Assembly: GCF_900114285.1 (NCBI RefSeq)
Contig: NZ_FOSN01000005.1
Coordinates: 62,001 to 126,000 of the forward strand
Direction of reading: 5' to 3'
DNA: 64,000 nt
From: Methylocapsa palsarum
GTDB taxonomy: Bacteria; Pseudomonadota; Alphaproteobacteria; Rhizobiales; Beijerinckiaceae
The notes beneath the pieces are model-generated. The model was not told the origin of the DNA, made no database searches, and saw nothing but the letters and a program-made list of their open reading frames with translations. A program made the position numbers and the translations under genes. This document shows, one piece after another, positions 47,031 to 50,889 of the stretch; the first letter of the stretch is position 1, and every line of letters starts with the position of its first letter.

Positions 47031-47891
47031 GTGAGCAGAATCGCCTATGTCAACGGTCGATATGTCGAGGGCCGCCACGCCATGGTCCATATTGATGATC
47101 GCGGCTATACATTCTCGGACGGGGTCTATGAGGTTTGCGAAGTTTTTCGGGGAGCCTTGATCGACGAGCAAAGACATTACGACAGACTCGCCCGCTCGCT
47201 CCGCGAATTGCGCATCGACCCGCCGGTGGGGCAGGGCGCGCTTGAATTCATCCTCCGGGAAGTCCTCTCGAGAAACAAGGTCTCGAACGGGTTTGTGTAC
47301 CTCCAGGCGACAAGGGGCGTGTCGCCGCGCGATCATGCGTTTCCGCAGACGCCTGTGCGCGCGAGCCTGATCGTGACCGCGCGCTCCGTCGATCCGAAAA
47401 AGGGCGAAACCGCAGCGCTCAAGGGAATCAGCGTAGTGTCGACCCCGGACCTCCGATGGAAGCGGGTCGACATCAAGACTATCTCCCTGCTGCCGAATGT
47501 CCTGGCGCGTCAAGCGGCGAAGGAAAGCGGCGCGTACGAGGCGTGGCTGATTGACGCGGACGGGATGGTGACGGAGGGCGCCGCGTCGAACGCCTGGATC
47601 GTCGATCGATCCGGAACGATCATCACGCGGGAAGCCGATCAGTCTATCTTGCGAGGAATCACGCGGACGGCCCTGGTTGAAATTATCGCCGCGCAAGGCC
47701 TCCGCCTCGAAGAACGTAAATTCAGCTTGACGGAAGCGTTCGGCGCGCGTGAAGCCTTCATCACAGGAGCCACGACGCTCGTGACGCCGGTCGTCATGAT
47801 CGACGGCCGACCTATCGGCGAGGGTCTGCCCGGACCCATCGCACAGAAATTACGGGCTGTTTTCCACGAGCATGCGGCAAGATCCCACTAG
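47031..47891 (+). CDS. dat: D-amino acid aminotransferase (class IV PLP enzyme)
   Basis: The 286-residue protein is a fold-type IV transaminase, likely making D-alanine or D-glutamate from keto acids. It shows IAYVNGRYV, DRGYTFSDGVYEV near residues 22-34, the PLP lysine in DIKTISLLPNVLA near 147, and EGAASNAWIV near 180. The start is GTG at 47031, preceded by GGAAGGAG. The gene sits between ntrX and hfq as in relatives. Its stop TAG is the first three bases of repeat copy 3. A branched-chain substrate cannot be fully excluded. Confidence 0.88.
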   Translation: MSRIAYVNGRYVEGRHAMVHIDDRGYTFSDGVYEVCEVFRGALIDEQRHYDRLARSLRELRIDPPVGQGALEFILREVLSRNKVSNGFVYLQATRGVSPRDHAFPQTPVRASLIVTARSVDPKKGETAALKGISVVSTPDLRWKRVDIKTISLLPNVLARQAAKESGAYEAWLIDADGMVTEGAASNAWIVDRSGTIITREADQSILRGITRTALVEIIAAQGLRLEERKFSLTEAFGAREAFITGATTLVTPVVMIDGRPIGEGLPGPIAQKLRAVFHEHAARSH

Positions 47892-48005
47892 AGCGCTTTC
47901 CGATCGCATGGAATCATGCGATCGATCAGAAATCGCTTCAGATTCAAAGGCTAGAGCATATTCTTCTAGATGGGATTGATTTAATCCGATCGGAATATGC
48001 TCTAG
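47889..48005 (-). repeat. 117 bp double-hairpin element, copy 3 (inverted)
   Basis: This copy lies in the opposite orientation to the others, so the GATCGCATG hairpin comes first and the CATATTC hairpin second. It again begins with TAG, which here is the stop codon of the D-amino acid transaminase, and ends in CTCTAG at 48005. Both hairpins remain foldable despite substitutions. It lies upstream of the hfq promoter region (48006-48198). Confidence 0.9.
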
Positions 48006-48198
48006 CGCGGAGTTTGCGTTAATTTGTCTTCCGATGCGAAACAGAATTTGCAATCCCCTTGAGCAGCCTTTTTAATGCGCTAGTTTTGAGGGCTTCTGTA
48101 TATCATTAGTGGGAAGGCGACTTTTTTTAAGGGAACTGGACTCGGCACTCGCGCCAGACAAGCGCCCGATAAACAAACCAAACAACGGGAACTAGAAG

Positions 48199-48456
48199 AT
48201 GGCGGCAGAACGCCCACAAAATCTACAGGACACGTTCCTCAACTTCGTCCGAAAAAACAAGGTTCCGCTTACGATCTTCCTGGTCAATGGCGTCAAACTA
48301 CAAGGCGTGGTCACGTGGTTCGACAATTTTTGCGTGCTGCTGAGACGGGACGGTCATTCTCAGCTCGTCTATAAGCATGCGATCTCGACGATCATGCCTG
48401 GACAACCCATCCAGATGTTTGAGGCCGGAGACGACGGCGGAGCGCCAGGCGGCTAG
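48199..48456 (+). CDS. hfq: RNA chaperone Hfq
   Basis: Hfq is the Sm-like hexamer that pairs small RNAs with mRNAs. The 85-residue protein carries the Sm1 and Sm2 regions, including [20 protein letters not shown] and the diagnostic YKHAIST at residues 58-64, and has the short C-terminal tail typical of alphaproteobacteria. It starts at ATG after GGGAAC-type sequence. hflX follows with an unusual start, and the pair is conserved across proteobacteria. Confidence 0.97.
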
Positions 48457-48562
48457 CGCGAACGATTGCAGTTGGCATCGGAAGCGGACTCCCCATATGG
48501 AGGGTGTCCGGGCGTATCGATCCTGTCCCGCTGCGCGCTCGATTGAATTGTGAGGAACCAGC

Positions 48563-49963
48563 ATCGAAGCATCGAGCGTCAGCCAGACCCCGAATCCCGA
48601 AACGGAACGACTCATCGCCGGGCGAACCCGCGCGCTTGTCGTCGGCCCTTATCTGGAACGTGTCCAAAAAAGCAACGACCAGGCAGCTGGAAGCCGCTCT
48701 CAGGAGGCGAAGATCGCCGAGGCGAAGGGTCTCGCCTGCGCTATCGACCTCAATCTGATCGACGCCAGGATTGTCAATCTTGCTCAGATCCGTCCGGCCA
48801 GTTTTCTCGGTAAAGGCAAAGTCGAGGAATTGGCCGAGTTCGTGCGCAACGAGGACATCGACCTTGTCATCATGGATTGCGCGCTCTCTCCCGTCCAGCA
48901 ACGCAACCTTGAGAAGGCGTTCTTCGCCAAAGTCATCGATCGGACAGGGTTGATCCTTGAAATCTTCGGGCGCCGGGCGCGCACGCGAGAGGGCACGCTT
49001 CAAGTCGAACTCGCTCATCTTGCTTATCAGAAGTCCCGGCTCGTCCGCTCGTGGACCCATCTAGAGCGTCAACGCGGCGGCTTTGGCTTCCTCGGCGGCC
49101 CCGGCGAAACCCAGATCGAGACCGACCGGCGGCTGATTGAAGTCCGCATGAAACGGATCGAGCTTGAGCTTGCCAGCGTCAAGCGCACGCGCGGCCTGCA
49201 TCGAAAGAGCCGCCGCACGGTGCCTTATCCGATCGTCGCGCTGGTCGGTTACACAAATGCGGGAAAGTCCACGCTGTTCAATGATTTGACCCAGTCGAAG
49301 GTGCTTGCCGAGGACATGCTGTTTGCGACTCTCGACCCAACCTTGCGTCGGGTTTCCTTGCCGCACGGCGGTGAAATCATTTTGTCTGACACCGTCGGCT
49401 TCATTTCCGACCTGCCGACGATGCTGGTCAGCGCCTTCCGCGCGACGCTCGAGGAGGTTCTCGAGGCGGACGTGATCCTTCATGTCCGGGACATCGCGCA
49501 TGAAGACGCCGAAGCGCAGCTCGCCGACGTCGAAACCGTTCTCTCGCAGCTGGGTGTGGATCCCTCCGGGGACCGCCGGTTGCTGGAAGTCTGGAACAAG
49601 GCCGACCTGCTCGATCCCGACGCCCTGACGGCGGCGCAGAACAGCGCCCAGAGGCGATCTGCCGCGGCGCGGCCTGTCATCATCGTTTCAGCGCTGACGG
49701 GGCAGGGCATGGCCGGGCTTCGCGAGGCGATCGAACATCGCCTCGCCCAAGGCCGCGTCACCTTCGACGTCTCGCTCGAACCCGAAAATGGGTCAGGCCT
49801 TGGATGGCTTTACGAAAACACGGAAGTCTTGCAGAGAACGACGGCGGCTGACGGCTCCACGCTTTTGACCATTCGCGTCGCGCCGGAGCGTGCGGAACGC
49901 GTGCGGCGGAAGTTTTTCGCCGACGGCCGCGAAGGGCAGGCGTCGCTGGATCGTGCCAGCTAG
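48563..49963 (+). CDS. hflX: GTPase HflX with apparent ATC start codon
   Basis: HflX is a ribosome-associated GTPase that splits stalled ribosomes. The protein of about 466 residues has the N-terminal HflX domain (RALVVGPYL, LIDARIVNLAQIRPASFLGKGK in short pieces), a GGPGETQIETDRR linker, and the G domain with G1 GYTNAGKST, G3 DTVGF and G4 NKAD. In this frame a TGA lies at 48551-48553, and no ATG, GTG or TTG follows until TTG 48830, which would delete most of the N-terminal domain. GAGGA at 48552-48556 is six bases before ATC 48563, which I take as the start. The TAG stop is the edge of repeat copy 4. Confidence 0.88.
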   Translation: MEASSVSQTPNPETERLIAGRTRALVVGPYLERVQKSNDQAAGSRSQEAKIAEAKGLACAIDLNLIDARIVNLAQIRPASFLGKGKVEELAEFVRNEDIDLVIMDCALSPVQQRNLEKAFFAKVIDRTGLILEIFGRRARTREGTLQVELAHLAYQKSRLVRSWTHLERQRGGFGFLGGPGETQIETDRRLIEVRMKRIELELASVKRTRGLHRKSRRTVPYPIVALVGYTNAGKSTLFNDLTQSKVLAEDMLFATLDPTLRRVSLPHGGEIILSDTVGFISDLPTMLVSAFRATLEEVLEADVILHVRDIAHEDAEAQLADVETVLSQLGVDPSGDRRLLEVWNKADLLDPDALTAAQNSAQRRSAAARPVIIVSALTGQGMAGLREAIEHRLAQGRVTFDVSLEPENGSGLGWLYENTEVLQRTTAADGSTLLTIRVAPERAERVRRKFFADGREGQASLDRAS

Positions 49964-50077
49964 AGCATATTCCGATCGGATTGAATCTATCCAATCGATG
50001 AGACTATGCTCAAGCCTTTGTAACTGGAGCGATTTCTGATCGACCGAATGATCACATTCGGCCGGAAAGCGCTCTAG
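49961..50077 (+). repeat. 117 bp double-hairpin element, copy 4, shared by two convergent genes
   Basis: The left TAG (49961-49963) is the hflX stop. On the other strand the TAG complementary to CTA at 50074-50076 is the mazG stop. The element therefore fills the whole space between the two genes. In its second hairpin, two pairs differ from copy 2 on both sides (T-A to C-G and C-G to A-T), keeping the stem; three further changes are in the loop. It may act as a two-way terminator. Confidence 0.93.
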
Positions 50078-50889
50078 CTGGATTTGGAGCGCTTTTCCTG
50101 GGCCTTGGCGGAATTCCAAAGGTCTTCCATCTGCTCAAGGGTGGCGGTCCCGGGCGAGACGCGCTGTCGGGCCAGTTCAGTTTCAATGAAGCGGAAACGC
50201 CGTTCAAATTTGGCGTTCGAGCCCCGGATTGCGTCTTCGGGATCGACCGAGACGTGCCGGGCGAGATTGGCGACGGCGCAGAGCAAATCGCCGATCTCCT
50301 CTCGAATGGCGTCTGATTCGCCCAGGTCGAGCGCCTCCTCGACCTCCGCAGTTTCTTCCCGAATCTTATCGAGAACGAGGCGCGCGTCATCCCAATCGAA
50401 GCCGATTGTCGCAGCCTGCCTTTGCAGCTTCACGGCGCGAGTCAGGCCGGGCAGGGCAAGCGGCACGTCGCCCATCAGACCGCCGGAGTCGGGCGCATCC
50501 TCCCGCGCCAGCTTTTCCGCGGCCTTGATCGCCGCCCAGGAGGCTTTCGCCTGCGCCGGCGAAAGCTCGCGGTTTTCGTCAAAGACATGCGGATGGCGGC
50601 GGATCATTTTCTGCGTAATCGATTGAACGACCCCGCCAAAGTCGAAGTGGCCGGCTTCTTCGGCGATTTGTGAATGAAAGACCACCTGAAGCAGCAGGTC
50701 GCCCAGTTCGTCCTTAAGATCAGCCATATCCCTCCGGCCAATCGCGTCGGCGACCTCGTAAGCTTCCTCGATCGTAAACGGGCTAATGGTTTCGAACGTC
50801 TGTTGGACGTCCCAACCGCAGCCGGTTTTCGGGTGGCGCAGCGCGGCCATGATCTCAAGCAAACGGGAAATATCGCGCGAGGACTGCAT
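50074..50889 (-). CDS. mazG: Nucleoside triphosphate pyrophosphohydrolase MazG
   Basis: MazG hydrolyses (d)NTPs to monophosphates and pyrophosphate and is linked to nucleotide-pool cleaning and stress. The 271-residue protein has two MazG domains. The first has CGWDVQQTFETI, EEAYEVADAI and DELGDLLLQVVFHS; the second has EETAEVEEAL and EEIGDLLCAVANLARH. The EExxE and ExxD metal motifs are intact. The ATG is clear. The last three bases of the gene belong to repeat copy 4. hfq-hflX-mazG proximity is conserved. Confidence 0.94.
   Translation of the reverse strand: MQSSRDISRLLEIMAALRHPKTGCGWDVQQTFETISPFTIEEAYEVADAIGRRDMADLKDELGDLLLQVVFHSQIAEEAGHFDFGGVVQSITQKMIRRHPHVFDENRELSPAQAKASWAAIKAAEKLAREDAPDSGGLMGDVPLALPGLTRAVKLQRQAATIGFDWDDARLVLDKIREETAEVEEALDLGESDAIREEIGDLLCAVANLARHVSVDPEDAIRGSNAKFERRFRFIETELARQRVSPGTATLEQMEDLWNSAKAQEKRSKSS

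Follow-up and report, generated by a model that had tools for sequence, protein, structure and literature searches.

The stretch of DNA analysed here, referred to as the window, comprises 64,000 nucleotides of Methylocapsa palsarum (assembly GCF_900114285.1, contig NZ_FOSN01000005.1, positions 62,001 to 126,000), and all positions are given in the numbering of the window itself. It carries hfq followed by hflX, a gene order that is also found in Escherichia coli and Sinorhizobium, and the features that bear on the start of hflX are the following.

48199 to 48456, forward strand: hfq, the upstream gene, with an ATG start and ending 106 nt before the ATC (TIGR02383, 110.3 bits)
48551 to 48553, forward strand: in-frame TGA, upstream end of the hflX frame (from translation)
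48552 to 48556, forward strand: GAGGA, putative Shine-Dalgarno (SD) sequence of hflX, overlapping the frame-closing TGA (from the sequence)
48563 to 48565, forward strand: ATC, putative start codon of hflX (position behind the frame-closing TGA, suitably spaced SD sequence, ATC/ATA equivalents in the genus)
48563 to 49963, forward strand: hflX coding sequence from ATC to TAG, 466 amino acids (TIGR03156, Pfam)
48830 to 48832, forward strand: TTG, first canonical codon in the hflX frame, within the N-terminal domain; rejected as a start (frame reading, domain coverage)

As an earlier note on this DNA had stated, the TGA shuts the hflX frame and no ATG, GTG or TTG follows before position 48830; the codons between the stop and the ATC read GGA ACC AGC. 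The GAGGA, whose placement six bases ahead of the ATC (spacer 48557 to 48562) had also been given correctly, forms with an anti-SD string a duplex of -6.6 kcal/mol. When translated from the ATC, the product exceeds the TIGR03156 cut-off of 216.75 bits with a score of 444.5, which places it in the HflX GTPase family, and contains the Pfam domains GTP-bdg_N (PF13167), GTP-bdg_M (PF16360), MMR_HSR1 (PF01926) and HflX_C (PF19275). GTP-bdg_N spans residues 49-135 of this protein and begins before the TTG, in agreement with the homology to HflX that the note had traced upstream of that codon; initiation at TTG 48830 would retain only model positions 44-88 of 89 and lose about half of the N-terminal domain. 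The gene in the window has a noncanonical start with no canonical alternative, as expected of a gene of the infC type. With regard to other signals, no RNA structure above chance was found between hfq and the ATC (z -0.21), a terminator scan returned three sites against 2.7 in shuffled sequences, and a promoter scan found no promoter.

Comparison with close relatives, the check that had been proposed, supports the ATC as the best start. hflX was found in 14 of 15 genomes of the genus, the remaining one (77% complete) giving weak matches of the kind that other GTPases give. In ten of the 14 genes, that of the window included (L001, L006-L012, L017 and L028), a GGAG-like SD sequence is followed by ATC (nine cases) or ATA (one), so that the same arrangement recurs in nine other genomes of the genus. 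In four of these genes (L001, L007, L012 and L017), the frame is devoid of canonical codons from its last stop up to the first conserved block, and in eight of the ten no such codon precedes the ATH codon (ATT, ATC or ATA); L009 and L010 have in-frame TTG and GTG codons just upstream of the ATC. The remaining four of the 14 (L014, L015, L016 and L020) start canonically at ATG, which indicates that the noncanonical codon is not indispensable to hflX. Two members of other genera of the same family (L019 and L023) combine an SD sequence with ATA, L019 having also two TTG codons further upstream, and overall the ATH codon is kept in 12 of the 16 sequences of the window's clade. In eleven of these twelve (L010 being set aside as a near twin of L009), the SD sequence at -10 to -7, the AT of the codon and the G that follows it are conserved; the SD part of this comparison is partly circular, since the ATH codons were picked partly by their SD sequences. 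It could be argued that a sequencing or assembly error conceals an ATG in what is, after all, a single draft genome in 78 contigs. Yet the arrangement shared by nine further genomes of the genus, and separately by a clade of Rhizobiaceae, makes such an error very unlikely indeed, to the point of being negligible.

The Rhizobiaceae clade consists of 54 sequences, with Rhizobium, Agrobacterium, Neorhizobium, Sinorhizobium and Martelella among its members, and was delimited by more than 74.5% identity to L092 over the aligned segment, a cut chosen after a preliminary look at the start column. Unlike the codons picked with the help of the SD sequence in the window's clade, the start column was here taken from the protein alignment. 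It holds ATT in 41, ATC in eight and ATA in four sequences, i.e. ATH in 53 of 54; the 54 of 54 returned by a script is partly so by construction, as the script sought an isoleucine codon near the expected place. The 54th sequence, L197, has a gap in the column, and its ATC is directly followed by ATG, so that it may have reverted to a canonical start. The next sequences by identity, outside the set, are canonical, with GTG in L221 and L222, and TTG straight after a stop codon, then ATC ATC, in L224 and L225. Within the clade, the tree implies some ten substitutions at the third base of the ATH codon, all of them exchanges among T, C and A and none to G (L197 being scored as ATC).

The information content changes abruptly at this codon in the 48 Rhizobiaceae sequences that have it at equal distance: about 0.3 bit per base upstream, 2.0 bits for the invariant A and T of the codon, and 1.35, 1.36 and 0.65 bit by codon phase downstream. 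A peak attributable to the SD sequence lies at -12 to -10, the G at -11 reaching 1.30 bit; under a loose rule, an SD-like word (one of ten) is found 4-13 nt upstream in 49 of 54 sequences, and the mean SD pairing is -5.0 kcal/mol at the ATH codon versus -2.3 at other in-frame positions. Pairwise mismatch by phase is flat upstream (0.67/0.66/0.66) and takes on a coding pattern in the 20 codons after the ATH (0.26/0.27/0.56), for which median dN is 0.30 and median dS 1.37 (210 of 300 sampled pairs). The contrast is less marked over codons 22-60, which were compared without alignment gaps (0.53/0.49/0.65; dN 0.97, dS 1.42), an effect that we attribute to sequences falling out of register in a variable linker. 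Taken together, the phase mismatch, the dN and dS values and the jump in information among these 48 sequences argue that coding selection starts at, or very near, the ATH codon.

These observations also bear on where else translation might begin. HflX could be made from a downstream canonical codon, i.e. from TTG 48830 in the window and, in the Rhizobiaceae, from an ATG that, in 47 of 54 sequences, stands some 21 codons after the ATH and immediately ahead of the conserved block. Such codons do exist, and the ATG is a possible second or main start in that clade. As an account of the start in both clades this is nevertheless quite improbable, given that the TTG would remove half of a domain, that the 20 codons before the Rhizobiaceae ATG are under the purifying coding selection just described, that mean SD pairing at the ATG is -3.0 kcal/mol versus -5.0 at the ATH, and that five of the 54 sequences have no canonical codon on either side up to the conserved block.

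Alternatively, the ATH could be an internal isoleucine codon, with initiation at variable upstream codons or by way of a frameshift. A canonical codon is present upstream in the open frame in 14 of 54 Rhizobiaceae sequences, and the annotation of hflX in S. meliloti Ak57 (CP090106.1), the one annotated Sinorhizobium record found, starts at a GTG that precedes the ATT by three codons; two other records carry no annotation at this place. That GTG is replaced by GTT or GTA in the relatives L200-L202, in which the ATT stays, and is GTG again in L114; moreover, 40 of the 54 sequences have no such upstream codon, and in 22 of the 23 with an in-frame stop 2-6 codons upstream there is no canonical codon between stop and ATH. 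Coding conservation is absent upstream of the ATH, and the codon usage of the start column runs against that of ordinary isoleucines: from the first conserved block to the G1 motif of the same genes ATC is used 610 times, ATT 107 and ATA nine, and the 11 other conserved isoleucine columns of the aligned segment have an ATC majority, which makes the ATT-rich start column an outlier on the same tree. An internal isoleucine is hard to credit on this evidence, and the reading of ATC 48563 as the start codon of hflX is, by comparison of sequences, well supported.

Two other genes served as controls. The earlier note had likened the ATC to the AUU of infC, and indeed infC of the window's own genome (L276) starts ATT CGC CGT CCG after AGGAG. 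In a first search, infC started with ATT at 21 of 29 loci, with ATC at one and with GTT at one, six being unparsed; in the Rhizobium family (41 genomes matched), it started with ATT at all 30 loci read. The range of codons that could appear in these infC counts was limited by the parser, which accepted only I, V, L or M at the first residue. An ATG is present four codons inside infC in many relatives of the window's genome. It is thus probable that an essential gene of these bacteria begins at a codon of this type. As for hfq in the same loci, 193 of 204 cases have an ATG at the expected place or a few codons from it, with GTG in two, TTG in one and no start found in eight, these 11 being sequences that are short upstream.

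The distribution of start codons was then read on a FastTree phylogeny of HflX, built with the start region omitted. The loci are a non-random sample (the best 80 of 570, up to 30 per other search, and 100 stretches picked from match lists); 240 loci gave 231 distinct ones, and 230 were used, L040 beginning inside the gene. Start states were assigned to 224 of them, and six loci with neither a canonical codon nor a convincing ATH (L055, L106, L128, L140, L164 and L174) were left unlabelled; other starts, frameshifts or errors are possible there. Eight state changes suffice, or nine if L197 is taken as canonical: the ATH was gained once in the 54-sequence Rhizobiaceae clade (support 88) and once in the 16-sequence clade of the window (support 98), which also shows three losses to canonical starts, and it appears in three single sequences beyond the two clades (L056, L227 and L237). 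None of these three has a canonical start; L227 and L237 have ATT and ATA, respectively, shortly after a stop codon, and L056, from Roseiarcus fermentans, has ATT after a strong SD sequence. In all, frames without any canonical codon are uncommon: 18 of the 230 loci have no ATG, GTG or TTG from the last in-frame stop to the first conserved block, and of these 12 fit the ATH pattern and six are left unexplained.

Outside the ATH set, 161 sequences, mainly of the same order, were read, of which 91 have one canonical candidate, 64 several and six none. The single candidate is TTG in 73, GTG in 13 and ATG in five, and in 54 of the 161 a TTG stands straight after a stop codon. Among 27 distant loci (L291-L317) from a 240-genome search of the class, kept separate from the 230 and scored with an approximate automatic rule, 12 have TTG, three GTG, two ATG, eight several candidates, one none and one is incomplete; hflX of E. 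coli K-12 starts with TTG (L318:1173-1175). With TTG thus prevailing, and E. coli using it as well, weak starts seem to be usual for hflX, the ATH being their extreme form.

The same prevalence of TTG lends itself to another interpretation, namely that the ATC is indeed the start, that it has no regulatory meaning, and that in a weakly expressed gene tolerant of near-cognate starts the codon simply drifted. Besides the TTG starts, it is favoured by the dispensability of HflX for normal growth of E. coli (PMC9067457) and by three or more returns to canonical starts in the window's clade, to which L197 may add one in the Rhizobiaceae. Against it speaks the Rhizobiaceae column, which was held in 53 of 54 sequences through some ten third-base changes with none to G, and we regard drift as unlikely, while deserving to be kept in mind. 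That AUG has been avoided at this start in 53 of 54 genomes points to selection for weak initiation.

What such selection might serve can be outlined from what is known of initiation factor 3 (IF3). Under stress, HflX takes 70S ribosomes apart, and IF3 prevents the subunits from rejoining (PMC9067457), and noncanonical starts are repressed by IF3, a means by which infC controls itself (PMC5472188). In the mechanism that we propose, hflX would be translated from ATC 48563 by SD-dependent initiation; given that IF3 destabilizes initiation unless the codon is AUG, GUG or UUG, HflX would be made at a low, IF3-limited rate, by analogy with infC and sigR. As HflX splits the 70S ribosome and IF3 then keeps the subunits apart, the codon would couple the amount of the splitter to that of free IF3, and a shortage of IF3 would derepress infC and hflX together. 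Fixation of the arrangement would have happened twice, once in the ancestor of one Rhizobiaceae clade and once, separately, in the clade of the window. This joint explanation (ATC start, IF3-limited HflX, coupling to free IF3 and two separate fixations) is, in our judgement, the likely one. hflX would, by analogy, join infC among the genes with start codons discriminated by IF3. More tentatively, and with somewhat less than even confidence, it may be proposed that the AUU, AUC and AUA starts of infC and hflX define a small IF3 regulon for ribosome dissociation, in which less free IF3 would raise both products, and which would have arisen at least twice in the Hyphomicrobiales, building on the weak hflX starts that are UUG elsewhere. 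Given the conservation of the ATH start, control of a ribosome-splitting factor by IF3 can be tested directly.

Four known systems can be set beside this one. With infC, hflX would share the noncanonical start (ATT, ATC or ATA), a strong SD sequence, conservation in relatives and a product that keeps ribosomal subunits apart; infC differs in being regulated by its own product, whereas hflX would be regulated in trans, and in its more uniform context (AGGAG...ATT CGC). The product of pcnB is poly(A) polymerase. In E. coli this gene has an AUU start, named as such in PMC1780047, that limits expression, but there the start was demonstrated by experiment. The gene lepA, whose product is also a translational GTPase, in Borrelia burgdorferi and Bacillus licheniformis needs an AUU start to be full length, as deduced, like that of hflX, from comparison; the passage of PMC1780047 concerned deals with single species and mentions no conservation across a clade. 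In Streptomyces, IF3 represses sigR at a GTC start, an arrangement present in 32 of 34 species (PMC5472188). Here, sigR is likewise a gene other than infC placed under IF3 by a noncanonical codon, genus-wide, and annotated from an upstream GTG, but the codon is GTC rather than ATH, the product is a sigma factor rather than a ribosome factor, and N-terminal sequence, mutants and IF3 alleles prove its start, while that of hflX derives from sequence comparison.

Well-characterized noncanonical starts in bacteria are few (PMC5472188). Among the matches listed in a search of titles and abstracts of the open-licence literature, no report of hflX with such a start was found, and the main text of a ribosome-profiling paper on S. 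meliloti (PMC10117765) does not name hflX. As start prediction leans on ATG, GTG and TTG, hflX may be misannotated in part of the Rhizobiaceae.

Two minor features of the window's genome may be added. The hfq-hflX pair is flanked by two inverted copies (47882-48006 and 49959-50083; 84% complementary) of a palindromic dispersed repeat of about 125 nt, which occurs dozens of times in the genome, at about 90% identity and in part head to tail (40 of 286 candidate places were scored). Elsewhere in the same genome (L002, G000:C51:15445-15600), a short HflX-like stretch, with 54% identity over 52 residues and an in-frame TAG, is perhaps a remnant.
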